Assembly: GCF_026210795.1 (NCBI RefSeq)
Contig: NC_089448.1
Location: 124,001-188,000, forward strand
Length of the DNA stretch: 64,000 nt
Source of the DNA: Rhizophagus irregularis
Taxonomy: Eukaryota > Glomeromycota > Glomeromycetes > Glomerales > Glomeraceae
Reading direction: 5' to 3'
The notes below the pieces were generated by a model. It made no database searches, was not told the origin of the DNA, and saw only the letters and a program-made list of their open reading frames with translations. Of this stretch, positions 2,600-42,850 are shown in pieces; within the stretch, counting starts at the first letter, position 1, and the number at the start of each line of letters is the position of its first letter. Made by a program: the position numbers and the translations under genes.

Positions 2600-2729
2600 T
2601 GCCGTCTGTCTAAGGAAATATTTAAGTAGACTTTTAAGTATTTTGTAGAGTCATATTAACTTTGTTTTCATTGTCATAAATGATTAGAAATATTATAGTA
2701 TGTTTAAGTAGTCTTTCGGGTATTTGATG

Positions 2730-4560
2730 GAGCAGCATGATGCTATGCATGGGTGGGAGCATAGCATGCTTACTTTGTAAGCCTGTGAGTACCAGCTTTT
2801 GCTGCAGTCTCATGGTAGGGCTGGTTGGGAACTTGGAGCGGTATAGTACTATGCGAGGGTCGGAGCATAGACGCTTACTTTTAGTAAGCTCGTGGGTACC
2901 AGTTTTTGCTGCAGTCCTGCGATAGGACCGAAGGTAAGTACACTTTTTTTGTTATTTTTCATTTTTTTTATGACTTTTTTTTATTTCTTCGTTATTTTTA
3001 GCTTTGGGTATTTTTATCGGAACAGCATGATGCTATGCGTTGGGTGGGAGCATAGTGTGCTTACTTTGTAAGCCTGTGAGTACCAGTTTTTGCTGTAGTC
3101 TCACAGTAGGGCTGAAGGTAAGTGCACTTTTTTGTTATTTTTTCAGTTGTTTTTTATTTTTTTTATGATTTTTTTTATTTCTTCATTATTTTTAGCTTTG
3201 GGTATTTTTATTGGAGCAGCATGATGCTATGCGTTGGGTGGGAGCATAGTGTGCTTACTTTGTAAGCCTGTGAGTACCAGCTTTTGCTGTAGTCTCACAG
3301 TAGGGCTGAAGGTAAGTGCACTTTTTTATTTTTTCAGTTTTTTTTTATTTTTTTTTATGATTTTTTTTTATTTCTTCATTATTTTTAGCTTTGGGTATTT
3401 TTATTGGAGCAGCATGATGCTATGCGTTGGGTGGGAGCATAGTGTGCTTACTTTGTAAGCCTGTGAGTACCAGTTTTTGCTGTAGTCTCACAGTAGGGCT
3501 GAAGGTAAGTGCACTTTTTTGTTATTTTTTCAGTTGTTTTTTATTTTTTTTATGATTTTTTTTATTTCTTCATTATTTTTAGCTTTGGGTATTTTTATTG
3601 GAGCAGCATGATGCTATGCGTTGGGTGGGAGCATAGTGTGCTTACTTTGTAAGCCTGTGAGTACCAGCTTTTGCTGCAGTCTCACAGTAGGGCTGAAGGT
3701 AAGTGCACTTTTTTGTTATTTTTTCAGTTGTTTTTTATTTTTTTTATGATTTTTTTTATTTCTTCATTATTTTTAGCTTTGGGTATTTTTATTGGAACAG
3801 CATGATGCTATGCGTTGGGTGGGAGCATAGTGTGCTTACTTTGTAAGCCTGTGAGTACCAGCTTTTGCTGTAGTCTCACAGTAGGGCTGAAGGTAAGTGC
3901 ACTTTTTTATTTTTTCAGTTTTTTTTTATTTTTTTTTATGATTTTTTTTTATTTCTTCATTATTTTTAGCTTTGGGTATTTTTATTGGAGCAGCATGATG
4001 CTATGCGTTGGGTGGGAGCATAGTGTGCTTATTTTGTAAGCCTGTGAGTACCAGCTTTTGCTGTAGTCTCACAGTAGGGCTGAAGGTAAGTGCACTTTTT
4101 TGTTATTTTTTCAGTTGTTTTTTATTTTTTTTATGATTTTTTTTATTTCTTCATTATTTTTAGCTTTGGGTATTTTTATTGGAGCAGCATGATGCTATGC
4201 GTTGGGTGGGAGCATAGTGTGCTTACTTAGTAAGCCTGTGAGTACCAGCTTTTGCTGCAGTCTCACAGTAGGGCTGAAGGTAAGTGCACTTTTTTATTTT
4301 TTCAGTTTTTTTTTATTTTTTTGATGATTTTTTTTATTTCTTCATTATTTTTAGCTTTGGGTATTTTATTGGAGCAGCATGATGCTATGCGTTGGGTGGG
4401 AGCATAGTGTGCTTACTGTGAATACCAGTTTTTACTGTAGTCTCACAGTAGAGCTGGTTGGTTGTGGTACAACATGGTGCTATACGTAATTTTCATGGGA
4501 GGAGCATAGTGCGCTACTCAGGAAGCCTCTTGTGGCAGGGCCGTAGTACTAAATCATATG
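2730..4560 (+). repeat. Tandem array of ~193-bp hairpin-bearing units
   Basis: Unit starts (AGCATGATGCTATGCG) fall at about 3023, 3216, 3411, 3604, 3798, 3991, 4185 and 4375, a period of 190-195 bp. Two divergent copies lie at 2731 and 2842, and one lies near 4475. Each unit has a GC-richer core of about 116 bp and a T-rich spacer of about 77 bp. The core forms three adjacent hairpins: CTATGC/GCATAG, GCTTAC-TTT-GTAAGC, and CTGTGAG/CTCACAG enclosing CAGC-TTTT-GCTG. Variants keep pairing: the 2731 copy has ATGCTATGC/GCATAGCAT, the 2842 copy has GCTTACT/AGTAAGC, and the last has CAGT/ACTG. Each core begins after TTATTTTTAG and ends at GAAGGTAAGT, which resemble splice acceptor and donor sites. 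No long reading frame crosses the array. It may be a structured non-coding RNA, exon-like repeats or a transposon fragment. Confidence 0.9.
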
Positions 4561-5435
4561 ATAAAGTACAAGATTTTTAAAAATGTGAATCATAACAATT
4601 TTTTTGCTATGAAATAAAAAGCTATAAATATAAGTGATCATTTAAATAGCTATTTATTAAGAAATTTTATTGTAAATCTTTACTGTATAATAAAAATACT
4701 TTTCTTTTATGAAGTCATTATATTTGTTGTTTTTATATATTTGTGTAATATTTAAATCTTGCTTGATTGTATATATTATGTTATTTTTCTTACACTTTCA
4801 CATTCTATACAGGTATTTTATAATTATTTTATTGCTAAATTTGTTTTCAAAATTTTTATATGCTCACTATTGCTTTAATTTCCTTTTTTCTCTTGCTTGT
4901 TTTTTCTATAATGCTAAAAAGTAATTTACTGTAGTAGACATTTGTGAATATTTTTAAATTTAAAGATAAAGTATTATCATATGTTAGAAATCAAAACAAT
5001 TTTGTTTTAATTTCAAATAAAAATATAAAAAAATTTTTTTTTATTCAAAATCCCAGCTATTTGTATAAAATCATGCTTCAGACAATTATGACTTACAAAT
5101 ATTACTAATTACAATGTAAATAAATCCCATGACATGAATTTTACTAAGTAATCCTTACTGAGTATGCAGTTAAAATTCAGTTACTGATTTTTTTTTTTTG
5201 ATTTTCTTAAATAGATTTGAATTTTTATTTATCAATAATAACTAATAATGTCAATAAGAAGGATTTTTTTCTTATTATATTTTTATTGTTCATTTTTATT
5301 GCAACTTTTTTTTTTGGCTGTAATGAGTCATTGCATAAGCATTACATTTTTGTATTCAATATTACATAAAATTTGTATAACAAAAAATTATATATAAGAC
5401 CTTACTTTTGAATATTTCAAAGCATTATTTTACTC
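4561..5435. other. AT-rich intergenic, no gene seen
   Basis: Low-complexity AT-rich sequence. About 5170-5330 is a partial copy of a T-rich dispersed repeat also seen near 25.4, 43.6 and 58.4 kb (shared TTTTTATTGTTCATTTT and TTGCAA-poly(T)-TTGG blocks). The short hydrophobic open stretch at 4709-4924 is best explained by composition. Confidence 0.5.
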
Positions 5436-7175: not shown

Positions 7176-10100
7176 CTATCTAATGTCAAAAACATTTTTA
7201 AGAAAACTATTTTGTAAAATTAAAAATAAATCTATATTATTGAACCCTATATTATCTCTATAAGTAGTCCAATGTCCTGAATGTAAATAATTACTTGTCG
7301 TCCAACGAATATGGGCGAAATTATCATTAAAGCCGCCATCCCTATAATAAGGAATAGTGGCGAAGTGCCGAGAATTATAATGTCGACTTGGAGATAAATT
7401 GTGATCAGGAGCACCTAGATCAGGAGGAGGAGGAGTTCTTTTCTTATGTCGTTTTCTGTAAAATCTTTTTTTGTTTTTTGTAATGGATAAAGTACTTTCC
7501 CATTGTTTAACTAAGGAAGCACGACGTGTCCAAATGAGTACATCAATTGAAGACATTAAAGTCGAAAAAAATTTTGAAAATAAGGAAAATCGTAATTTTT
7601 TATCATTAATATAAATATTAAAAATTTTAGTAAGGTCACTCGGGACCAAATGATGTATAAGTAAATAACCAGGATGTGATTGTGGTAAAGCATCAACAAA
7701 AGAAGTATTAAAAAGGGAAATATTTTTAATAGTCTCTTCCAAAATAGAATTCCCATCCTTAGTATTCTTCATAATAAGGTCGTGTAAGTCATGAGCAGCT
7801 CGTATTAATATGTTTTTGATATGAATTGAGTGTTCCTTGCATAAGCCCACGTGCGTATTATCGTCGCGGGCATTAGCGCATTCAATGCAAGGTATGCTGC
7901 CTATAGGGTATAAACGAGGATAGTTGCGTTGTTGTATATCGATTGTTGGATATATAAAATTACATTTTTTGATTCTACTTCCTTGTTGTTTAGAAAGTTT
8001 GGCGCTACATGGAACGTCTTGATCGTTAAAATTCAACCATTCTTTGGTGAAAGTCCAATCAATGTCACCATCGATAATTTGTTGTTTGATCAGAGATAAG
8101 GCTTTATTATTGACCATCGAATTGAATATTAAAGGTTGGATGACGTTATCCGCCCATTTTCTGACGTTGCGATCCACAACGTGTAAACGATTCCAAGAAA
8201 TGAAACCTAAACTTTGTTTAACAAAAAATTTATGATTAACAATAATAGGCTCAATAAAATGAGCACCAGCTTTTGCTAGTAAATCTGCTTCATCATTATA
8301 AAGGTTATTACTATGACCAGAAACTTTGTGCAAAGTGACTAAAAGTTGCTTTTCTTCAATCAAGAAAAAGATTAAATCCCATATTAAAAAATTTGATTGT
8401 TTCAGTTTTTGTCGTGGACTAGCGACACCTGATTGCATACGCGTATTAAAAATGGTAATGCAGTTGGCTGAATCGGTATAAATATTGATTTTACAATTGA
8501 AAGGAGTTACAATAAGGGCCGTGAGTATACCCATGCTTTCGCTTTTGGAAGACGATGGGAAGAAGACTGTAGATCCACTAAAATTGACTCGCGGCGTGAA
8601 GGGTTGAACTTGGGTCCATCCGTATCCACTAATACTATGAGTTGTACCAATATGTTGGACAGAACCATCTGTGTAAAAAGTTAATAAATTTTCTGATTCT
8701 AATTGTTTTGCACAAGACTTTAATTCTACTTTAAGGTCTGGATGACAAATTAGAGCGTGATCAATATGGTTGTCTATATTATTTGAAAGTAAAGAAGGGT
8801 AAGGTGCAAAAACAGCGTCCAAAGGACGTTGTGAAGAAGTGTTCAAAGGGGATTTATCTATTTTAATAAAATGTTCATATGCAATATGCCTAAATGTGTG
8901 AAAAGGTTTCATAGCTACTACGAAATTCTGACGATTGTAAAATTCTAAAAGTGATTTGTGTTCAAAGGAAGATTTTTTGAAAATATTAAATAATAATAAT
9001 TTTTGTGTTCTAATTGCGATAACGCATGTCGGACGAGCATCATGCGGATAGTAAGAGTGTAAAAGGCAACCCTTACACGCAACAAGTCCAAGTAATTGTT
9101 TTTTAGGTGTTAAACTATTATTATGATGAGTTTGTTGGGGTATAAAGTGTTGTAGATAAGAAATTGAAGTTAAATGATCTGTTTCCTGTGTTAAAGTCTT
9201 TCCAAAAATAACTTGTTTTTGGACATTATTCCAATGTATCGTCCATTGTGATTTGGGTGTTGTAACATCTGGTATGGTTGGGGGGGATTTATGTGTTCTA
9301 TTGATGTCGCACACAACATCGTTAAGAGGGTGGATCAACCGTAAATTGTTACTGAGTACGTAATTGTCGGTTAAATTTTTGTACCATGCCGGGATTGGGC
9401 CACTATAATTGTTGTTATTGTTTCTTTTTACATCAGACCACGAGAGTAAATAATTCCCGTCTGATGAAACGATTTGGTCCATGTAAATAATGTTTTTGGC
9501 TTTGAGAGATTTAATGTCGGCTGCAGAAAGATCTGACATATAATCTCGTATAGGGGTATTTCCTCCTAAAATGTTAATATCGAAAGTGAAATTAATAGAA
9601 AATCCATATTGATTAAGCAAGCCCAAAGCTTGCGTTAAATAGGTAGGCTTGACTATATGGTCCAAATAGGTATTAATGTTGGACGGAATAGTAGGATACC
9701 AGATTTCTGATAGCGTATTGTATATTTTCTGGGTCGCTATTTCTCGAAGAACCGGTGTATTAAAAAGTGCACCTAAAATATTAAGTTGTGATTTCATTTG
9801 GATATCAAAAAAATTATTAATAGATTGGAACATATGGTTATAAATAATATTATCCGCCGTATTTGACGGAAGATTCAAACGTTGTTTGAATAATCTTTTC
9901 AATGGTCCCATTAAAGATTGGCATTGTTTCGAATTAAGGATCGTATGTTGGAAAATATATTCCAATTTTGGTATAACTATTTTGTTAATAATATATTGTA
10001 TATGGTGATGTGTTAATTTTTTGTTTTTCATAGTGTTGTAGTGAGCCATCACTATTTGTTTGCCTTTTCGTATCGTTTGCGTATGTTTATCTAATGCATT

Positions 10101-12980
10101 AATGTATAAACCTAAGATGCGTTCGCCTTTGTTACGAGGCGTGACAGGCGTTTCATATGGCCGATTGTTAATTGTGAGGATGATGTTCGGTTGTTTGATG
10201 GTACGGTCATTAGTTAAAATTTTGTATTTATCCATATTGACTTTAATATTATTCAGGTCATAAAAGGAATTGGCAATTGATAATTTTTCTTCAATTTGCG
10301 ATTGTGAAGAGCCAAACCACGTAGTGTCGTCGAGATAACCTACTACGGAGATGTCAAAGGTATGAATGACATCATTCTCTATGTGTTGACAATTTTTCTT
10401 TTGTGTCGCAAAGGTGGAGTAATGTAAATGCGTTAATTGATTGATGCGATGAAACATCGGGTCATAGTATATATTCCAGAGAAGTGGTGAAACAACTTCG
10501 CCTTGGTCAATGCCTTGGAGAACTGCATAAGATGGCAGTAAACCGTTCGTGGTAATGATTTCATTATGTCTTTCTGTAAATAGATTAAGAAAAAAGGTAA
10601 TAATGATAGCAGGAATCTTTAAGCGTTCGAGCGCCAACTTCAATAATCGTAAGTTGACGCGATCGTATGCTTTTGATAAGTCTTGTAATACGATCCAAAT
10701 GGGTTTTTTCTTAATACGTGCGTGTTCTATTAAATGTTGTGTAATCATAAGCGGCTCTAAGGTTGATTGACCCAGGACGCCCGCTTTATTGTTAAATTGT
10801 AAAATTGAGTGTTTGGAAAGGGCTTGATTTAACCTGGTTGAAATAATATTGACTAGTAATTTCCTAGGAGTTTCCAGGAGAGTTATAGGCCTTGTGTTGG
10901 TTAGTTTACTATTCCAATCATATGGTTTCGGTATCGGAAAAAGCAACGCGTGTTTCCATTTGTCCGGAATTACTTTAAGTACAATACAAGCGTTGAAGAT
11001 TCTGACGAGGATCATTAAAACGTCCTCGTGTAAATGTGTGATATCTTCATATGTGATTTTGGAAGGACCTGGCGCTTTGTTGTTATTCAATTTTTTGAAA
11101 ATGGAGGAAAGGTCCAATAGAGTGATTGGTTCAATTAAATGATTCCACCATTCTTCGTTAACAGTTTGTAAAGTAGGATCATAATGATCTTTCCAATCTT
11201 GTGGTAGGGAGTCTAAATTCCAAATATTCTTTTCATTTGGTGGCCCCGCTTGATGTTGGAAATGTTTGATGGCTTCTTTTTCTATAATCTCTGGGTTATT
11301 AGTAAATACGTGTTCACCTTTGTTGTCGATAAAAGAAAGTCTATCCAGCACTATACGGTGTGGTTTACGATTTAAAATAGAGTTGATCATTTTAGTTTGA
11401 TCATGTTGTAAATTGTCATTGCGTTCTGTGACATAAGAATTAATTTTGTTGGTAAGGTATTTATCGTACGCAGATTGGTAAGCTATTTTCATCGTATGAT
11501 ATAATCGATAAATTTCATCCTTTGTTGATACAAAATTATCAGGAGTAACCGTTGATGGTAAAGTGATTGATAATTTATTAAAATCTAATAAAATCTTTAG
11601 TCGAGGGAGGTATTTCATCCATCCTTCATAATAGGTGGCCCATACATGTCGTGGAATGTTGTGGAGGGTTGAAAGTGTGGGTGTGAAATTTAATTTAAAA
11701 CGAATTTTAATATGTTTTAAATTTAAAAATTGTTTCACTTGATATAAAAGAATCACGTGATTATTCATTTGTCGTAATTCAAGAGGCAAATCTAAGTTTG
11801 ATGATGTATTAGAGTTAATAGATTTTTGTGGTATGATATACTCTTTGAGTTCGATTAAGGTCTTCTCGAAGAGATTCCATTGTCGGTTTAAAGTATTTTT
11901 GTTATTAATTTGTTGAGGTTCTTTTGAGAATCTTTTTTTGAAAGTTGAACGGCTACGATTAGTGTAATCAGACCATAAATTAACAGTCATTTGATCGTAT
12001 TTGAAGACTTTCTTAGTATCGTCATTCCGCTTATTAAAAGGAAGGACGTCCGCGAACTTGTCAAATAAATTCTTATTTCGTGAATCAAAAAAAGTTTTTT
12101 CTAAAAGGGTTATAACAATATTGTGATCAGTATTAAAAAAAGATTGTGGTATTGATTGTGTATATGAATGAATTGATTGTTCTAATAAATTCGTATTTCC
12201 ATAGTGATAATCGATTCTATTTGTACTATGGGTGGAGTTATTATCTAAGGATACTTGATGGTATTTAATCATATCTTTGTATCCGTTATTTTTAAGTAAA
12301 CGGATAGAAGGATAATTCGGGTCTGATTTATTCTTTGTGGTCACATTAAAATCGCCAATAACAATGGCGTATGAGTTTTTGGTGTTGTTAGATTTAATGA
12401 TTAGTTTGTTCAATTTATCGACGCAGACAGCGCTGATTTTGGTTTTGGTGGCATCATTCTTAGGACTGGATGGTAAGTAGCAACAAGTTACGTTCAGTTG
12501 TTTTGATTTCTTAAAACCGAAGATAAGATTGATGATACGTCCTTCTAAAAATTCTGTATGATGAAGATGTTTTTCCATTTTGTCGGTAATCATGATGGCG
12601 ACTCCAGTGCCTTTATTAACGCCGGAGGTGTCGTGAACTATATATATAAAATTGTTGGGTAAAGTAGGATGTTTGTGTTTGTTAATAATGGTATTTGATT
12701 GATCTCCAAAGAGACTAGTTTCCGCTAAACCTAGGATATCAAAGTTGTGTGCGACAAAATAATTAATAATGTCGTTAAGTTTGTTGTTAAAGGCTGTTTG
12801 AATATTAATACTGCCTATTTTAATATAATCAATAAAAAAATTATTATCATTAATGTTATCTTGATTGATCACATGTAAGTTTGTAATATGTTCTTCATTA
12901 ATCAAGTGATCGGGATTTTGTGACAAGGAGTGTGAAATATTAGGAAAGGGATCAGATATATTTAGGTTGGTGTGTGACAT
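7176..12980 (-). CDS. LINE ORF2: endonuclease, reverse transcriptase, RNase H
   Basis: The product is 1934 residues and performs target-primed reverse transcription. An AP-type endonuclease (about residues 50-295) shows GSINIQ, LAETSLF, IGDFN (about 210) and TDHN. The reverse transcriptase (about 600-930) shows NNKAPGPSKIT, LQDLSKAYDRV, GEVVSPLLWNIYYDP and the catalytic VGYLDD (about 882); Leu occupies the variable position of YxDD. A type-1 RNase H (about 1430-1570) has its four acidic residues in FYTDGS, SKSESMGI, IYTDSAN and NDEADLLA. Near residue 1697 the spacing C-x2-C-x8-H-x3-C-x2-H suggests a zinc site, also kept in the truncated copy. The start codon lies 117 bp after ORF1. The frame is uninterrupted. 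Confidence 0.95.
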   Translation of the reverse strand: MSHTNLNISDPFPNISHSLSQNPDHLINEEHITNLHVINQDNINDNNFFIDYIKIGSINIQTAFNNKLNDIINYFVAHNFDILGLAETSLFGDQSNTIINKHKHPTLPNNFIYIVHDTSGVNKGTGVAIMITDKMEKHLHHTEFLEGRIINLIFGFKKSKQLNVTCCYLPSSPKNDATKTKISAVCVDKLNKLIIKSNNTKNSYAIVIGDFNVTTKNKSDPNYPSIRLLKNNGYKDMIKYHQVSLDNNSTHSTNRIDYHYGNTNLLEQSIHSYTQSIPQSFFNTDHNIVITLLEKTFFDSRNKNLFDKFADVLPFNKRNDDTKKVFKYDQMTVNLWSDYTNRSRSTFKKRFSKEPQQINNKNTLNRQWNLFEKTLIELKEYIIPQKSINSNTSSNLDLPLELRQMNNHVILLYQVKQFLNLKHIKIRFKLNFTPTLSTLHNIPRHVWATYYEGWMKYLPRLKILLDFNKLSITLPSTVTPDNFVSTKDEIYRLYHTMKIAYQSAYDKYLTNKINSYVTERNDNLQHDQTKMINSILNRKPHRIVLDRLSFIDNKGEHVFTNNPEIIEKEAIKHFQHQAGPPNEKNIWNLDSLPQDWKDHYDPTLQTVNEEWWNHLIEPITLLDLSSIFKKLNNNKAPGPSKITYEDITHLHEDVLMILVRIFNACIVLKVIPDKWKHALLFPIPKPYDWNSKLTNTRPITLLETPRKLLVNIISTRLNQALSKHSILQFNNKAGVLGQSTLEPLMITQHLIEHARIKKKPIWIVLQDLSKAYDRVNLRLLKLALERLKIPAIIITFFLNLFTERHNEIITTNGLLPSYAVLQGIDQGEVVSPLLWNIYYDPMFHRINQLTHLHYSTFATQKKNCQHIENDVIHTFDISVVGYLDDTTWFGSSQSQIEEKLSIANSFYDLNNIKVNMDKYKILTNDRTIKQPNIILTINNRPYETPVTPRNKGERILGLYINALDKHTQTIRKGKQIVMAHYNTMKNKKLTHHHIQYIINKIVIPKLEYIFQHTILNSKQCQSLMGPLKRLFKQRLNLPSNTADNIIYNHMFQSINNFFDIQMKSQLNILGALFNTPVLREIATQKIYNTLSEIWYPTIPSNINTYLDHIVKPTYLTQALGLLNQYGFSINFTFDINILGGNTPIRDYMSDLSAADIKSLKAKNIIYMDQIVSSDGNYLLSWSDVKRNNNNNYSGPIPAWYKNLTDNYVLSNNLRLIHPLNDVVCDINRTHKSPPTIPDVTTPKSQWTIHWNNVQKQVIFGKTLTQETDHLTSISYLQHFIPQQTHHNNSLTPKKQLLGLVACKGCLLHSYYPHDARPTCVIAIRTQKLLLFNIFKKSSFEHKSLLEFYNRQNFVVAMKPFHTFRHIAYEHFIKIDKSPLNTSSQRPLDAVFAPYPSLLSNNIDNHIDHALICHPDLKVELKSCAKQLESENLLTFYTDGSVQHIGTTHSISGYGWTQVQPFTPRVNFSGSTVFFPSSSKSESMGILTALIVTPFNCKINIYTDSANCITIFNTRMQSGVASPRQKLKQSNFLIWDLIFFLIEEKQLLVTLHKVSGHSNNLYNDEADLLAKAGAHFIEPIIVNHKFFVKQSLGFISWNRLHVVDRNVRKWADNVIQPLIFNSMVNNKALSLIKQQIIDGDIDWTFTKEWLNFNDQDVPCSAKLSKQQGSRIKKCNFIYPTIDIQQRNYPRLYPIGSIPCIECANARDDNTHVGLCKEHSIHIKNILIRAAHDLHDLIMKNTKDGNSILEETIKNISLFNTSFVDALPQSHPGYLLIHHLVPSDLTKIFNIYINDKKLRFSLFSKFFSTLMSSIDVLIWTRRASLVKQWESTLSITKNKKRFYRKRHKKRTPPPPDLGAPDHNLSPSRHYNSRHFATIPYYRDGGFNDNFAHIRWTTSNYLHSGHWTTYRDNIGFNNIDLFLILQNSFLKNVFDIR

Positions 12981-13258
12981 TATTTAAAATATGTTTGAAA
13001 TTGGGATGTGTATATACCAGAAATTGGGATAAAGACAATAAGGGGAATCAAAATGTTATATCTAAATTCTTTATGATTATAAAGAATGAGTCGCAAATTA
13101 AACCTGAGGTTTATTGCCCCAGTTAAATGGGTTGAGGATGAAGCTCGATTGTCCTGAAGTAGCTTGATCGGATGCTTCATATGTATTTTCAATGGTGCCT
13201 GTATCGGAGATATCTCCAGATTCCGTGTAATATTCATCGGAAAGCGGGAGTGCATCAC
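12980..13258 (-). other. Overlapping alternative frame ending in TAATG
   Basis: A 92-codon frame overlaps the last 160 bp of ORF1 in another phase and ends with a stop that shares its last A with the ORF2 start codon (TAATG). Stop-restart overlaps of this form are known to couple ORF1 and ORF2 translation in some insect LINEs. The peptide itself has no recognisable domain, so the arrangement could be chance. Confidence 0.3.
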
Positions 13259-15251
13259 TATCAGTCATTACCGATTCAGTAGATGGTTGGGTGAATCGTT
13301 TTTTTACATCCTTCAAAGGGGTTTTTTCATATGGGGTACTAGTACGTTTGGCTTTCCTAGCTGGTTGTTGTCGGGTGGGTGGGGTTTGTGATGCTTGTAA
13401 AGTGTTGATGAGTGTTTGCATCTGGGTCATCAAGGATTTATGTTGATTTTCAAGACTATCTTGTCTATGCGTAAGCAACGCTATATTAGTGTCAATTGTG
13501 GTTAGTTGTTGGTGGTGCGAGGAATATTGTTCTGTGAACGTTTGGTGGGAACCCTGTAATACGTTAACGTGGTTTGTTAAGGTAGTAATTTGTTGTTCCA
13601 TAAGTGCAATTTTATCTAAGATTTCTTGGGGCAGTTGTTGTTGGGACCAGGATGACTTAGGTTTCTGATACGTCCTATCTGGGTGATTTGTAGTGTTGTT
13701 ATATGTTTGATTTTGTTTGCCTCGAGTGTTCGGTTGGGGACGAGATTGTCCGTTTGAGTTACCAGGATTATCTTTGGAGAGTTTTATAACATGGTTGTAA
13801 GTTTGTCTGGTTGTTTCGTTGACGAGTATACGATCTTTGTTACGTATGATGAAACGTTTTTTGAATATTTTATGTTCATTTTTGTCTAAGACGAAATCAG
13901 TACTAGGGCAGTTTTTGTATTCGTGTGTATGGTTACCACATACATTGCAAGTTTTTTTGGTGTTAGTGTGTGGAAAAATGAAGATTGTGTGTTCACCAAA
14001 TTTTGTACCCGTAATTGTGGTATAATCTTTTTTGATATCGTTTGGGTGGACGTATATAAACGCGTTCTTGAAAAAAGATGAGCGTGAGGTTTGAGTAAAA
14101 GTACACGTACGTCCCTTCAAGTGTGTCACTAAAGGGCTTAAGTCTCTTGCGTTCGTGTTTAAGGGTAGACCAGTGATTTTGTAGAAAGAAGAGGTTCGTT
14201 GTGTGTATATTGGATGTTTTGGATTGCCTGGTAGGATTCTGGCTACTGAGTCCTCAATGGCTAAGCACCAGTCTTGTTCTAATAAGTAATCTGCTGCAGC
14301 CTTGTCCTCAAAGCTGATTATTAATTGTTTATAAATTGGTTTGATAAAAATTGGTTTATCATTTTTGTTGCGGTTTTGGATTCTTTGAGGTGGTTTTTTG
14401 ATTTCTTTGTAAGTTGTGATTCGTTTTTCCGTTGCGTCAGTTATTTGTTTTATCAATAACGTGGCGTCATAATTGATAGGGATATCTAATATTTTGATGA
14501 TAGTGTCATCTTGTAATTGGAGTTTGCGTTCAATTAGAGTATCTATATTTTGTTGTGTATATTCATAAATTTTAACATTATGAAGGGTTGGAGGTGATGT
14601 TTTGATAAGGTGTGACAATTTTTCTTTGGTCGACACAGATATCATATAAAATTTGAACGTCATTTTTTTCAAAGATCTGACTTTGATAAAGTCTTTGTCT
14701 CCGACAAAGATGGTGTTAAGTTTTTGAAGAATTTCTTTGTCTGTAAGTTTTGGTGGAAAACTATCTCGTGGGATAAACCCTTCAAAGGAAGTTTGTATTT
14801 GTGTGTTTGAGGCTGAAAATATGTTGTCGATCATGGGGATTTCCTCCATTGGTGGTGGATTGCCATTAACGGATGTAGATCCTTCTGAAAGTTGTTGTGT
14901 TTCATTTTTATTGGTAATCTCTATTTCCATTTCATCAATCGTTTCAACGATTGGTGTATATGGTAAGTGGGAAGTGGAGTCACGTGTTATTGAAGAAATA
15001 TTCCCAGGGACTTGCTCCACGGAGGAGGAAGTTTGAGAAGGTTGAGAGGGTGAAGTCAAAGTAGGCTCAGCTGTCTTTTGACTATTATTATTGTTAGTTG
15101 TTGACGTGTTCGACATTTTTCTATTTTTGTTATTTATAACATTAGGAGCGAAAGTTCTGTATATGTCTTCTTTATCGGTAGAAGAATGATATGTTTTTTC
15201 GATATTTTTTAAAATTTTTTGAGAAAACTTGGAACGAGTGTTTCTGCTCAT
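13098..15251 (-). CDS. LINE ORF1: gag-like nucleic-acid-binding protein
   Basis: The 717-residue product should coat the element RNA. The N-terminus is low-complexity and rich in Ser, Thr, Asn and Pro (about 1-150). A mixed alpha/beta region follows (about 165-430), with three or more RRM-like stretches that I cannot assign firmly. A single CCHC zinc knuckle, C-x2-C-x4-H-x4-C (CNVCGNHTHEYKNC), lies near residue 440. Residues about 545-630 form a heptad-like, Gln-rich coiled coil (LMEQQITTLTNHVNVL), a likely oligomerisation segment, followed by a basic patch and an acidic Ser/Thr-rich tail. A zinc knuckle together with a coiled coil is typical of LINE ORF1 proteins. The first ATG after the presumed 5' end is used. 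No frame damage is seen. Confidence 0.9.
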   Translation of the reverse strand: MSRNTRSKFSQKILKNIEKTYHSSTDKEDIYRTFAPNVINNKNRKMSNTSTTNNNNSQKTAEPTLTSPSQPSQTSSSVEQVPGNISSITRDSTSHLPYTPIVETIDEMEIEITNKNETQQLSEGSTSVNGNPPPMEEIPMIDNIFSASNTQIQTSFEGFIPRDSFPPKLTDKEILQKLNTIFVGDKDFIKVRSLKKMTFKFYMISVSTKEKLSHLIKTSPPTLHNVKIYEYTQQNIDTLIERKLQLQDDTIIKILDIPINYDATLLIKQITDATEKRITTYKEIKKPPQRIQNRNKNDKPIFIKPIYKQLIISFEDKAAADYLLEQDWCLAIEDSVARILPGNPKHPIYTQRTSSFYKITGLPLNTNARDLSPLVTHLKGRTCTFTQTSRSSFFKNAFIYVHPNDIKKDYTTITGTKFGEHTIFIFPHTNTKKTCNVCGNHTHEYKNCPSTDFVLDKNEHKIFKKRFIIRNKDRILVNETTRQTYNHVIKLSKDNPGNSNGQSRPQPNTRGKQNQTYNNTTNHPDRTYQKPKSSWSQQQLPQEILDKIALMEQQITTLTNHVNVLQGSHQTFTEQYSSHHQQLTTIDTNIALLTHRQDSLENQHKSLMTQMQTLINTLQASQTPPTRQQPARKAKRTSTPYEKTPLKDVKKRFTQPSTESVMTDSDALPLSDEYYTESGDISDTGTIENTYEASDQATSGQSSFILNPFNWGNKPQV

Positions 15252-15598: not shown

Positions 15599-17752
15599 AC
15601 TCCTTGTTTTGGTACCATGTAGAGGATGCCATCTAAACTCTTATTACCCACATGATTTACGTCCAACGTGCGTAATCGCCATTAGGACACCAAAAATCAT
15701 TAATATTTAATGTTTTTACAAAATCTTCTACAGAACACAAATCTTTATTACCTTTTTATAATAATCAAATATTTTTTGTAGCTACCAAACCCTTTCATAC
15801 TTTAAGACATTTAGCTTTTGACCATTTTATTAAATTAGATAAATCCCCTTTAAAAATTATTACACCAACTACTGTTGATGTTTCTTTTACATCAATGGAG
15901 ATTACTTACTCCAAAAACGTTTTCGATCATATCGATAACGCGTTACTTTGTCACCCTATTATCAAAACAGAGTTAAAATCCTGTGCCAAAATATTAGAAA
16001 ATGAACGGTTATTAACTTTTTATACAGATGGTTCCGTTCAAAATATAGGTGGCACGCACAGTTTAAGTGGATATGGATGGACTCAAGTTCAACCCTTTAC
16101 ACCTAAAGTTACCTTTAAGGGATCTACCGTTTTTTTTCCCATCATCAACAAAAAGTGAAACTATGGGCATTCTTACAGCAATTATTGTTTCGCCATACTA
16201 CTGTAATCTGAATATTTATACTGATTCAGCCAGTTGTATCCAACTATTCAACACAAGACTTCACTCACCAGTGATCAGCCCACGACAAAATTAAAACAGA
16301 CCAACTTTCTCTTGTGGGATTTAATTTTTTTCTTGATAAATGAGAAACATTTATTAATTACGTTACATAAAGTAACTGGACATAGTTCTAACGCTCATAA
16401 TGATGAAGCCGATCGTCTAGCTAAATCTGGTGCACATCTCAAAGAACCAATTATTATTAATCACAAATTTTTTTTTAAACAAACCCTGGGCATTGTCGCG
16501 TGGAATAATTCCCATGTGATAGATAGAAATGTCAGAAAATGGTCAGATAACGTTATTCAACCTCTCATCTTCAATTCTATGATTAACAACAAGGCTTTAT
16601 TACCATCAAGCAACAAATTTTAAATGGCGACATAGATTGGTCAAAGAATGGTTACAACATAATCCAACTGACGCCCTGTGTGGCGCCAAATTATCCAAAA
16701 TACAAGGCAACAAAATCAAAAAATGCAATTTCATATATCCGACTATAGATATACAACAAAGAAATTATCCGCGTCTTTATCCTATTGGAAATATTCCGTG
16801 CAAGGATTGTAACGATATACAAAATTCCAACGCACATATTGGTATCTGTCATAATCATTCAAACGATATTATTACACTATTACTGGACGAAGGATATAAT
16901 TTACTTCAACTTATTCGTGACAATACGAAAGAAACACCTTACGCTTTGGAAGCTACTATTAGAAGTTCCCGCTTTTTTGATACTAACTTTAATGGTCCTT
17001 TATTGACCTCACATCCTTGTTATTTATTAATACATAACTTGGTCCCGACTCCCGAATGACCTAACTAGGATTTTTTATATTTATATTAAAGACAAAAAAT
17101 TACGATTTTCACTTTTTATTCAATTCATCACCCAGTTTATGGAAAAAATTGACGTTATAATTTGGAAACGTCGAAACACCTGGTTAAAGCCTGGGAACGG
17201 TCTTTATCTATTACAAAAAACAAAAAACGATTCTACCGACCACGAGTGTCGGTGCATATTCAAACAACACCCATTGAAGATAATGGAACAAATCAATCAC
17301 CACGACGCGTTTATACACATCGACGTGCCACCTCTTCTCCTTATTCGCGCGAAGGGGTTTTTTATAATGATCGTGCCCATATTAGATGGACATCAAGTAA
17401 TTTTCTACATTCAGGAAAATGGACCAAACATAGAGATAATTTTTGGTTCGATAATATATATTTATTTTCTTTTTTAAATCATAACTTTTTGGGTAATTTT
17501 ATAGATACTAGGTAGTATTTTTTTTTCTATGTTAGCTCTCATTTTTTTTTATTTTATTCCCGATTGGCAGGTGGGTTCTGGGGAAGATCTTGGATCCGAC
17601 CCGTTCTCATTTTTTTTAAAGGTCAGGAAACGTCGTCTTATAGGCGGCTTGATTGTTAGTGATAGAATTATTTTCGACACATTTGTATGTTGTCCTTGTA
17701 ATTTTTACTTCAATTGGTTTTTCTGTAACATAAAAATAAAAATAAAAATAAA
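15599..17752 (+). mobile_element. 5'-truncated LINE copy, plus strand
   Basis: This 2154-bp insertion starts at a point equal to about residue 1295 of ORF2 in the intact element (VPCRGCHLNSYYPHD matches VACKGCLLHSYYPHD) and runs through RNase H to a 3' UTR and the tail (AAAAAT)n. Exact 16-bp duplications flank it, so it is one insertion by target-primed reverse transcription that stopped early. It is head-to-head with the intact copy and clearly diverged from it, so it did not come from that copy recently. Confidence 0.95.
15600..17515 (+). pseudogene. LINE ORF2 C-terminal fragment, frameshifted
   Basis: The fragment aligns with residues 1295-1934 of the intact ORF2. Frame breaks occur near 15695, 16135, 16290, 16620, 17055 and 17160, so no continuous protein is made. 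RNase H motifs survive piecewise: FYTDGS near 16020, TKSETMGI near 16155, IYTDSAS near 16215 and NDEADRLA near 16400. The zinc-like C-x2-C-x8-H-x3-C-x2-H spacing is kept near 16800-16855. Confidence 0.9.
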
Positions 17753-18263: not shown

Positions 18264-18983
18264 TTATTTTGCTTTAGGGGGAAATTTTGGTCCATCTTTA
18301 GGACCGGGACCTTTTGGACCATCGAAATCTTCGCCTTTTGGACCATCGAAATCTTTACCCTTTGGACCTTTTGAACCTTTTGGGCCATCGAAATCTTTAC
18401 CCTTTGGACCTTTTGAACCTTTTGGACCATCGAAATCTTTACCCTTTGGACCTTTTGAACCTTTTGGACCATCGAAATCTTTACCCTTTGGACCTTTTGA
18501 ACCTTTTGGACCATCGAAATCTTTACCCTTTGGACCTTTTGAACCTTTTGGACCATCGAAATCTTTACCCTTTGGACCTTTTGAACCTTTTGGACCATCG
18601 AAATCTTTACCCTTTGGACCTTTTGAACCTTTTGGACCATCGAAATCTTTACCCTTTGGACCTTTTGAACCTTTTGGACCATCGAAATCTTTACCCTTTG
18701 GACCTTTTGAACCTTTTGGACCATCGAAATCTTTACCCTTTGGACCTTTTGAACCTTTTGGGCCATCGAAATCTTTACCCTTGGGACCTTTTAGTCCATC
18801 AAAATCTACACCTTTGGGGCCATCAGGAAATTTACCAGGAGGAGGTGGAGGAATTTTTGGTTCATCCTCATTGCCTCTTTTATTAATAACACCATTTTCT
18901 ATGTTTCCAATTGGTGTGGCAACGGAACTAGCAGTGAAAAGGGCTAAATTTATAGCCAAAATTAGAGTGTAAGAGAGCTTCAT
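18264..18983 (-). CDS. Secreted collagen-like Gly-Pro-Lys repeat protein
   Basis: The product has 239 residues. Residues 1-22 form a clear signal peptide (basic start, hydrophobic core, cleavage near SSVA). Lys-Arg at 35-36 (GVINKRGNED) is a likely Kex2 site ending a short propeptide. A PPPPPG linker follows, then about ten copies of a 14-residue unit (KGPKGKDFDGPKGS) and a short basic tail. The spacing resembles collagen-like G-x-y stretches but is broken by the acidic DFD step, so a stable triple helix is not assured. I do not recognise a specific family; cell-wall or matrix protein and host-facing secreted protein are both possible. The repeats are nearly identical at DNA level, which implies recent expansion or homogenisation. 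The start is the only ATG giving a signal peptide. Confidence 0.85.
   Translation of the reverse strand: MKLSYTLILAINLALFTASSVATPIGNIENGVINKRGNEDEPKIPPPPPGKFPDGPKGVDFDGLKGPKGKDFDGPKGSKGPKGKDFDGPKGSKGPKGKDFDGPKGSKGPKGKDFDGPKGSKGPKGKDFDGPKGSKGPKGKDFDGPKGSKGPKGKDFDGPKGSKGPKGKDFDGPKGSKGPKGKDFDGPKGSKGPKGKDFDGPKGSKGPKGKDFDGPKGEDFDGPKGPGPKDGPKFPPKAK
18340..18785 (-). repeat. 42-bp coding minisatellite, about ten units
   Basis: The unit is TTTGGACCTTTTGAACCTTT followed by a further 22 bp (on the plus strand). Copies are spaced exactly 42 bp apart from about 18361 to 18780, with G/A changes only at the two ends (TTTGGGCC). Because 42 is a multiple of three, other frames stay open too. Confidence 0.95.
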
Positions 18984-32253: not shown

Positions 32254-33254
32254 GGTTACGGTACATTTCGCCGAAGAAATTTCTCCGAAGGGAAGTTTTA
32301 CCGAAGGAACGTTTCGCCGATGGGACGTTTCGTCGAAAATCATTTTATCGAATCCATTTCACCGAATCGTCCATTTCGCCGAATGGACGTTTCACTGAAA
32401 ATGATAGCGATTAACATTTTTAAAAAAATATTTATCACGCAATGAAAATAAAATTTAATTCGTGATCCGCGTAAAAAGTAGAGAATCTAATTATTAAAAA
32501 CCGGGGTTAAGTTATATATAGTAATATATAATAGCGCGGAATCTGAAGACGCGGCAAATTAAAGCACGAATTTTTTAAATATGATGTAAATACTAAAACC
32601 ATCAGCATAAAATTATACCATTTGGCTAACTTTTTACTAGAAGTCCGGTAAAATTTTCAATAATTAGAAATAACTTTCCTATGAGCCTAAAAGTAAAAAT
32701 CCATTATTCTCAACGTTAAAAATAAGGTATTTTTTACCTTTAAGCCTATAAGTAAGTCATTTATAGTGCTCAAAAAATTTATCGGACTTTCAACAAAAGT
32801 AGTACTTTGGTTTTCCATGACGTCAGATTTTGTGCTATTATATAATTACCCCGATTTTCTCTCTACTTTATTTGCGGATCACGAATTAAAAATTATTTTT
32901 AAGAATTTTTCCTTTCCAGCATATTATCACTTTAACATTCAAGTAATTGTTAAGCAATAAATTAATAACTTTATTTTCCTGAAAATATTTATTTGCGAAA
33001 AAGCAACGAGATAAGTAACTTAATAAAAATCAGCTAATTTAAATAATTTTTGGCGAAATATCCATTCAGCAAAATGTCCATTCGGCGAAAATTCCATTTG
33101 ATAAAATGACTTCGACGAAATGGAATCGGTAAAATGGTATTTTGGCGAAACGTCCTTTCGGCGAAATACCCCTTCGGCGAAATATCCCTTCGGAGAAATG
33201 GCTTCGGTGAAATGGTTTCAGTGAAATGGACTTCGGCGAAAAGTCCAAATACCA
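32254..33254. mobile_element. Foldback element 1 (~1-kb palindrome)
   Basis: Both ends are arrays of degenerate 16-20-bp units around TTTCGCCGAAGGGACG, in opposite orientation (about 32262-32410 and 33045-33245). Inside, arms pair again: AATTCGTGATCCGC at 32457-32470 against 32874-32887, and AGAAGTCCGGTAAA at 32639 against TTTATCGGACTTT at 32778, with the centre near 32710. TTTGAG (32248-32253 and 33255-33260) may be the target-site duplication. No transposase frame is present, so it would be non-autonomous. Its GC-rich ends contrast with the window. Confidence 0.8.
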
Positions 33255-41721: not shown

Positions 41722-42850
41722 TCAAAGAGGTTGGTCATCATCTTCCTTTCCCAAGTCTATTTGATGAGATGTAGTACATGCTCTATTATACCCGGAGCTA
41801 TTGACATCTCTATTAGATCCCGCACTTTCCGTTCCAGCTACCATTTCCAGAGATGATGATGTTAACGTATCTTTCACATAACTCGCAGATCCTTCTGCTT
41901 TATTATCATTATGCTTGATCTGTTCATACAATAAATAATAGAAAAATTATTAAGAAATCCCGTGAACAAACCCTTATCATAGGATTATACTCTATACCGA
42001 CTTCTTTGAGGCAGATGTGTCAATTGATTTTTTATCCTGCAGATATAATGTTAGTCATTAAAAAAATGCTCACTATAAAATTCAAGACGACATTTTTATG
42101 ACAAAAGGTTATTATTATATTCTTATTCTAACCTTTGGTAATGATTGATTTTTTTTTTCGCTTTTGTCCATTGACTGGATCAGCTGTAGAAATAGACTCA
42201 ATCAGTACATCAGAAATTATAGGTAGTTTCCTGTATCGATATTTTTACTATTCATTTTCCGGCGAAGCATGCAGTTCACGTTTGCAATAGCCGCTTATTC
42301 TATTAGTAAAAAGGAAAATAATATTAGTATTATGGTTGAATGATTATTATAGAAACTGCGGATAACTATTTGGGCAATTAACAAGTTCTGGGCAACTACA
42401 ACTGAAAGTTGCGGATAACTAAAAGTTTTAGATGACTAAAAGTCGCAGAGAACTGAAAGCTTTAGATAACTAAAGTTTGGATAATTAAAGTTCTACACAA
42501 CTAAAAGTTGCGGATAACTAAAAGTTTTGGATGACTAAAAGTCGCGGACAGCTAAAAGCTTGGATAACTAAAAATCGTAGAATGGGTACAATAGTTCGGG
42601 AGGACATAAAATATAGACCTGAAGAATAGGTCAAAAGGCTATTAGTTTTCTTTATTTTCTTGGTATCTAAACTTTTATTAATAATCGCGCAAAGACTTTT
42701 GTTAAGCGCGTCAGTTGTCTTTTCGTAATTAAACTGTTTATAATCTCCTTCATGAATACGATGAATACGTTCCCAATTTTGTTGGAAATGGAAAATCGAC
42801 CATGTTCCAACATCGTTTTCGTTAAAATATTCACGCCATACTTTAGCCAT
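41722..42850 (-). CDS. Spliced gene of unknown function
   Basis: Minus strand. The start is taken at 42850 (MAKVWREYFNENDVGTW, then HFQQNWERIHRIHEGD and TTDALNKSL). Three later exons are well framed: 42183-42133 (acceptor TTTCTACAG; LIQSMDKSEKKNQSLPK), 42036-41998 (acceptor TCTGCAG; DKKSIDTSASKKS) and 41919-41722 (acceptor GAACAG; IKHNDNKAEGSASYVKD, ending GKEDDDQPL). All these junctions are phase 0 with GT donors. The end of the first exon is unresolved; the tandem repeat at 42355-42580 probably lies in the first intron. The product is small, polar and rich in Ser, Asp and Lys, with no recognised domain, signal peptide or membrane segment. A nuclear or otherwise regulatory role is only a guess. 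Confidence 0.5.
42355..42580. repeat. Degenerate tandem repeat, 16-18-bp unit
   Basis: Units of the form GATAACTAAAAGTT(TTG/GCG) recur across the region. Two higher-order copies, GTTGCGGATAACTAAAAGTT followed by TTGATGACTAAAAGTCGC-like sequence, start about 95 bp apart (42410 and 42505). Confidence 0.8.

Follow-up and report, generated by a model that had tools for sequence, protein, structure and literature searches.

A dispersed, multicopy family of folded RNA modules in Rhizophagus irregularis, probably non-coding genes multiplied in arrays with intron-like spacers

Structured non-coding RNAs of a single lineage can be encoded by many gene copies, as in the dictyostelid Class I RNAs, which the available part of PMC7919456 describes as ~60 nt long, with one stem, an 11-nt motif, the upstream element DUSE and proven expression. 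In fungi, comparative genomics has supplied fifteen candidate structured ncRNA motifs (PMC5640933, available in part). In Rhizophagus irregularis itself, the accessible text of PMC11075540 reports newly classified SINE families and leaves about two-thirds of the transposable-element content unclassified, and PMC6123716, so far as its text was available, records no SINEs in its assembly. The family of folded modules described here recalls each of these systems: like the Class I RNAs, it would comprise lineage-specific, multicopy structured ncRNA genes with a pairing-preserving closing stem and a constant motif; like the fungal candidates, it is a fungal motif drawn from comparative genomics; and like the SINEs, it consists of short dispersed repeats in the same species.

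The window, the whole 64,000-nt stretch of R. irregularis DNA that was analysed (G000:C20:124001-188000 in the genome searched below), contains a tandem array that a sequence-only reading had described as copies of a single ~193-bp unit with a ~116-nt core of three stems. The array is real (TRF places it at 2944-4417, with a period of 194, 7.6 copies, 96% matches and a higher-order period of 387 bp), and each unit carries the three-stem core. The repeat stands, but the idea of one unit type does not: the array is built of A, B and C modules in the order A-B-A(x8)-C, 11 modules in all, and its unit looks like an exon plus an intron. A uniform satellite is ruled out by the sequence and its genomic relatives. 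As redrawn, the array occupies 2729-4549, from the start of module A to a TAGTAC that follows module C; its modules measure 78-96 nt, and eight T-rich spacers of 68-78 nt, each running from GT to AG, lie between them. Besides the three module types and the spacers, the first reading had not seen the stem that closes each module (CAGC/GCTG in A, CGGT/ACCG in B, CGG/CCG in C), nor at least 44 other loci in the genome. The last A and the C of this array look decayed. The features, all on the plus strand, are as follows.

2712-2728, +, 5' leader TCTTTCGGGTATTTGAT, directly before module A
2729-2823, +, module A1: closing stem CAGC/GCTG and three hairpins (ATGCTATGC/GCATAGCAT; GCTTAC/GTAAGC; CTGTGAG/CTCATGG with inner CAGC/GCTG)
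2835-2930, +, module B: closing stem CGGT/ACCG and three hairpins
2934-3001, +, intron-like spacer 1 (GTAAGT...TTTTTAG)
3019-3114, +, module A2
3118-3195, +, intron-like spacer 2
3213-3308, +, module A3
3312-3388, +, intron-like spacer 3
3406-3501, +, module A4
3505-3582, +, intron-like spacer 4
3600-3695, +, module A5
3699-3776, +, intron-like spacer 5
3794-3889, +, module A6
3893-3969, +, intron-like spacer 6
3987-4082, +, module A7
4086-4163, +, intron-like spacer 7
4181-4276, +, module A8
4280-4354, +, intron-like spacer 8
4371-4456, +, module A9, decayed (86 nt; 22 pairs kept, 1 broken, 7 gapped)
4457-4465, +, A-C linker GTTGGTTGT, identical in 13/13 A-C junctions measured
4466-4543, +, module C, 3'-terminal, with several pairs broken in this copy
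4544-4549, +, TAGTAC 3' extension, of the TA[G/A]TAC type found in many loci

The changes that had been read as variation between copies of one unit do preserve pairing, but those in CTATGC/GCATAG and CGTGGG/CCTGCG distinguish module B from module A; the variant of the second stem, GCTTACT/AGTAAGC, is present in B and recurs in the A copy at 4181.

The spacers of the family look like introns, an inference made without RNA data. All 46 begin with GT and end with AG, with lengths of 56-85 nt (median 77), and their sequence variation avoids these dinucleotides. Their 5' hexamers are GTAAGT (37), GTGAGT (3), GTAATT (3), GTTAGT, GTAAGA and GTAATG (one each), and their 3' ends are TTAG (44), TCAG (1) and TAAG (1). 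U2-type introns have the 5' consensus GTRAGT, which 40 of the 46 spacers match. Because the spacers descend from one another, the 46 cases are not independent observations, and because the exact spliced junction GAAGCTTTGGGTATT is absent from the genome, no retrocopy attests to splicing. Given the 75,377 annotated introns of R. irregularis (PMC10639083, as far as its text was available), splicing of an array transcript would be unremarkable.

A DNA search of the fungus's own genome (146,748,485 bases, 32 contigs) places the family at no fewer than 45 loci on 18 contigs, a lower bound that counts the best-scoring candidates only; an exact-pattern search of viral contigs and other genome contigs found no relatives. 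The basic gene is a trimer, A-B-C, of modules of roughly 80-100 nt, with a core of ~290 nt, or ~310 nt with its conserved edges, and A-B linkers of 9-16 nt whose lengths ignore multiples of three. A long homogeneous tandem array is not the usual state: the first 40 loci comprise 25 ABC copies (L036, with a truncated C, among them), one ABCABC and 14 arrays of 6-11 modules. In these 14, the array of the window included, AB is followed by AB or A units and then by an A-C end, which 13 possess; L005 ends in a truncated C that is not counted in the module table. Among the five loci found later, L044 is an A-C copy with intact pairs, L041 to L043 have broken pairs (L041 is classed as decayed), and L045 has a deleted B; L040 is a double locus. 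In L010, two identical chimeric modules (637-741 and near 940-1045) join a C-type 5' half to a B-type 3' half, and their fourth closing pair is C-G, not the U-A of other B modules; both sides have changed, and we cannot say whether by mutation or by recombination.

Two further observations concern the edges of the gene. Directly 5' of the leader, at most 60 nt upstream of module A, AGGTAAGT[T/C]TAT occurs in 12 of the 45 loci (L018, L021-L027, L029, L030, L033, L035), preceded in several by what seems a degenerate extra module, as might remain after an upstream exon's intron was largely lost. Just 3' of module C, a subset of loci (L019, L024, L031, L033, L035, L045) carry an AT-rich hairpin of the type ACTTAATCATTA...TAATGA..AAGT, with z from -2.4 to -3.6 and, in several loci, a AAGATTTT-like motif after it. 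Over 27 loci its mean z is -0.89, against -0.33 to +0.31 in control windows, so it is visible in a subset only.

Each module folds into three hairpins enclosed by the closing stem, and the pairing is kept to a degree that chance alignment does not reproduce in A and B. Standard pairs fill 99.4% of 2216 pair cells in 74 distinct A modules, 99.7% of 1075 in 43 B modules and 98.5% of 646 in 34 C modules; none of 500 shuffles reaches the observed value for A or for B. As 29 of 500 shuffles do so for C, that module alone is weak evidence of covariation. Sliding the 3' partner by 1-3 columns leaves only 15.5-43.3% of the A cells paired. The alignments hold 74 of 77 distinct A modules, 43 of 46 B and 34 of 36 C, partial or badly deleted ones being omitted, and are also without the truncated C of L005 and the later-found L041 to L045. 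Restoring 22 omitted rows adds 440 paired, 22 unpaired and 86 gapped cells, and the 22 breaks in 462 pair cells make these rows worse than those kept.

Since shuffles ignore relatedness, we built a null on a FastTree phylogeny of 151 modules, in which the Fitch events of each column are dropped on random branches in proportion to their length, their number and kind being kept (400 replicates, 30 pairs). None of the 400 replicates reaches the observed value of any of five measures: standard pair cells, 99.35% (null mean 90.7, maximum 98.3); pairs with a double change, 13 (4.6, maximum 10); double-changed cells, 310 (37, maximum 156); pair types, 36 (28, maximum 34); and score, 0.303 (0.130, maximum 0.223). 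By this null, which is our own and not R-scape, covariation across genome-wide copies exceeds the phylogenetic expectation. The structure under test derives from the very sequences on which it is tested, the deep split between A, B and C contributes part of the signal, and one of the tested pairs, an outer one in hairpin 2 of C, was added after the alignment had been viewed and is absent from the C-only structure. With separate trees for each module type, single changes number 77 that keep pairing, 12 that give A-C and 12 that give other mismatches, besides six double changes.

Folding supports the same architecture unevenly. Without a given structure, RNAalifold finds from 24 of 27 single-ABC loci all three hairpins in every module type, but of the closing stems only that of A; the arms of the other two, in B and C, it pairs elsewhere, the last CCG of C, for example, with the first bases of A. 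With the C closing stem also paired in only 94.1% of cells, a predicted four-way junction is well supported in A and less so in B and C. Folded as a single sequence, one unit has z = -2.98, in a fold that pairs the spacer 5' end with the module, which might reflect regulation of splicing or chance; an A-B dimer shows no unusual stability (z = -0.96). Two motifs recur, the loop of hairpin 1, rich in G and with GCAUAG after it, and, in A and B, an internal loop of hairpin 3 within GUACCAG...CUGYAGUC. By eye, a possible outer stem around the whole RNA, GGGTAC/GTAC, shows mixed pairing, and we make no claim for it.

The direction of change at paired sites bears on which molecule is selected. When C changes to T in a G-C pair, the resulting G-U is tolerated in RNA, whereas a change of G to A leaves A-C, which is G-U only on the opposite strand. 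Changes that start from Watson-Crick pairs lead to G-U 50 times and to A-C 12 times (p 1.2e-6 if events are independent), and the corresponding base changes in unpaired columns lean the opposite way, 39 to 70, so mutation bias does not explain the excess of G-U. Over all paired-site changes, C>T plus A>G number 55 and G>A plus T>C 51, a balance expected if G-U pairs in turn become Watson-Crick pairs through a change on the opposite side; the argument is limited to changes from Watson-Crick pairs. On this asymmetry, the selected molecule is most likely an RNA of the plus strand. The earlier suggestion of selection on either a folded RNA or a DNA hairpin is thus narrowed to its first half, which the tree-based covariation supports, and the strand asymmetry disfavours a DNA cruciform or hairpin. 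We accordingly regard as very improbable a satellite, or a hairpin acting at the DNA level in recombination, replication or chromosome structure, without a functional RNA. The tandem arrays of near-identical units, their 387-bp higher-order period and the dispersal of the loci would suit such an element; a strand-specific asymmetry with the reverse lean at unpaired sites would not, nor would the absence of spacer-separated AB or A arrays from 26 of the first 40 loci.

Constraint is concentrated in the core. In 27 single-ABC loci (27 of the 45, after exclusion of the 14 arrays, L036, L040, L041 and L044), mean pairwise identity is 0.890 in the core and 0.59 and 0.56 in the flanking 20 nt, and beyond ~20 nt on each side it is at or near the shuffled level. 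The window from -60 to -100 stands at 0.387, slightly above the 0.35 of 40-nt shuffled sequence; the innermost windows have no 20-nt shuffled control. The ~20 nt 5' of module A are the only upstream stretch clearly conserved among these copies. In 29 pairs of copies with homologous flanks, which belong to five flank families and are not independent, mean divergence is 0.137 in the flanks and 0.037 in the core, a contrast that is conservative because local alignment flatters the flanks. The ratio of core to flank divergence lies between 0.06 and 0.40 in 28 pairs; the one exception is L042/L043, at 1.18, apparently a duplicate in decay. Slow evolution of the core could possibly be mimicked by gene conversion restricted to it, and the shared position of the boundary argues against such conversion without excluding it. 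The T run of the A-B linker diverges by 0.069 and the rest of the core by 0.034, which does not decide between gene conversion and selection.

These data also weigh on the possibility that the family is a non-autonomous, SINE-like mobile element, its fold kept because only folding copies are retroposed by LINEs and its arrays formed by secondary duplication. Dispersal of 45 loci over 18 of 32 contigs, the sharp fall of conservation ~20 nt outside the core and a nearby LINE-type ORF with reverse transcriptase and RNase H in the window are all as such an element would have them. We nonetheless think it unlikely: dead insertions would not be expected to keep a conserved core after duplication, as 28 of 29 pairs do; no constant tail is visible in 44 downstream stretches; no B-box-like word occurs (0/27 loci); and there is no clear target-site duplication, although repeats of at least 8 within a locus's own flanks are slightly in excess (6/27 loci, against 10.7% of cross-locus pairs).

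The nearby ORF belongs to a separate part of the window. The interval 7176-15251 on the minus strand holds two long ORFs of 1934 and 717 aa, the former matching reverse transcriptase and RNase H and, just below the cut-off, an endonuclease, and is, judging by these predicted products, a LINE-type element. At 15895-16158 (+), a frame of 87 aa without a Pfam match of its own looks, by eye, like the RNase H region of this element and is perhaps a fragment of a second copy. At 18309-18818 (-) lies a 42-bp tandem repeat (99% matches) whose stop-free translation repeats a GPKGKDFDGPKGSK-type motif of 14 residues, giving a repetitive protein segment rich in Gly, Lys and Asp, and degenerate tandem arrays with a period of 16-17 bp and longer multiples lie at 32280-33247 and 42400-42577.

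Protein coding can be set aside. The first reading had found that no long reading frame fits the array, and this remains so after in-silico removal of the presumed introns: the longest stop-to-stop frame of the spliced array has 73 codons on the plus strand and 103 on the minus strand. Five of ten loci have an antisense frame of 97-185 codons across ABC, which was rejected because the lengths of the A-B linkers ignore multiples of three. A conserved neighbouring gene, or a UTR element of one, was likewise rejected: among stop-to-stop frames of at least 90 codons within ~4 kb of ten loci, no protein family recurs at a fixed place, although intron-split genes would escape this search. Some neighbouring frames are similar to each other, namely those at L047 and L054 (59% over 305 aa; by eye they look BTB-like) and at L048 and L049 (33% over 130 aa), and lie 1.8-4.4 kb away at differing positions; a stretch of 17 residues immediately upstream of ABC is common to L047 and L051. 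For a small-RNA hairpin precursor, stems of 6-9 bp look too short.

Which polymerase would transcribe the family is a matter of inference. Dispersed, multicopy, structured RNAs, as the members of this family would be, are often products of RNA polymerase III, and each array unit could be a small gene with its own transcript, terminated by the T run that follows AAGGTAAGTGCAC; in most spacers a T run does follow soon after the unit. Inside ABC, however, runs of at least five T occur in 24 of 27 single loci (T6 in 13), and of the 24 loci whose modules are mapped, 17 have such a run in the A-B linker (T6 in 11, with no T6 elsewhere), yet B and C, which lie beyond, are conserved. The B-box consensus, taken as GWTCRANNC, is matched in none of the 27 loci (the A box was outside this test), and the constant AG before the next unit and the splice-like variation of the spacer 5' end would remain unexplained. 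Separate polymerase III genes are, on balance, quite improbable, more so than a SINE-like origin. We infer instead, without transcript data, stand-alone genes of RNA polymerase II. The upstream region is pyrimidine-rich (C+T 0.76 at -80 to -120 and 0.74 at -120 to -160). AATAAA lies 3' of C, at +20 to +120, in 26 of 44 loci (12.3 expected by shuffling; L036 is misplaced) and at +150 to +250 in 21 of 44 (13.0 expected), so the enrichment is not position-specific; AAUAAA is the main poly(A) signal of R. irregularis, with 56.7% of sites according to the available part of PMC10234402.

We posit, as the probable reading of these data, a multicopy, dispersed family of non-coding RNA genes made of A-B-C modules, multiplied in arrays and giving a spliced, multi-module product. 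Computation on the DNA shows the fold and its strand, the constraint, the order of the modules and the spacer ends; transcription, splicing and the polymerase are inferred. RNA polymerase II would transcribe the locus, whose 5' part appears to have been multiplied in 14 loci by duplication of a seeming exon-plus-intron unit, and the ~77-nt GT...AG spacers would be spliced out, leaving a beads-on-a-string RNA of three modules from the basic gene and 11 from the array in the window. Such an RNA could present the same protein- or ligand-binding fold repeatedly, with the recurrent loop motifs displayed on the junction, and might serve as a scaffold or sponge, with copy number determining its valency. 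This multivalent role is speculative, as there are no binding data; the family appears to yield a working RNA of unknown function. R. irregularis is a model species among arbuscular mycorrhizal fungi and is difficult to modify genetically, and a constrained, strand-specific structured RNA family among its unclassified repeats would offer a concrete ncRNA gene family for testing in a symbiont.

The first reading had known of no described family with this form, and that holds for Rfam 15 and the literature searched. No covariance model of the 4227 Rfam families matches the window at or above its gathering score, and a permissive scan of 2600-4650 returns nothing at E up to 5; of the 44 other loci, the ten scanned give four weak Rfam matches, none above the gathering score and none inside the modules. 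No description was found in the literature searched, including the available portions of PMC11075540, PMC6123716, PMC8647823, PMC5640933 and PMC10234402. The differing SINE records of PMC6123716 and PMC11075540, as far as their texts go, mean that the family may already carry a repeat label, and neither a label in a supplementary repeat library nor identity with a SINE family of PMC11075540 is excluded. In the accessible text of PMC5640933, the terms Rhizophagus, Glomus, Glomeromyc-, Mucoromyc- and "tandem" are absent, and its fifteen motifs were compared through Rfam only.

Set beside the known systems, the module family differs from the SINEs of R. irregularis in that it lacks a polymerase III B box, shows no clear target-site duplication and retains a conserved core after duplication. 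Membership in the dictyostelid Class I RNAs was rejected on length and architecture, in a comparison made without their covariance model: the Rhizophagus family, still without expression data, has a ~290-nt core of three modules and arrays with intron-like spacers. Each internal exon-like unit of the array in the window is one module. It is possible, and we offer it only tentatively, that this is an undescribed class, a spliced concatemeric RNA in which an exon equals one or two four-way-junction modules and the number of exons sets the number of near-identical binding folds. Should the spacers prove to be introns, the arrays would be a case of a non-coding RNA that lengthens by duplicating its exons, in the manner of repeat proteins, and the class, if real, would be a modular non-coding counterpart of the repeat proteins that have grown in this way.
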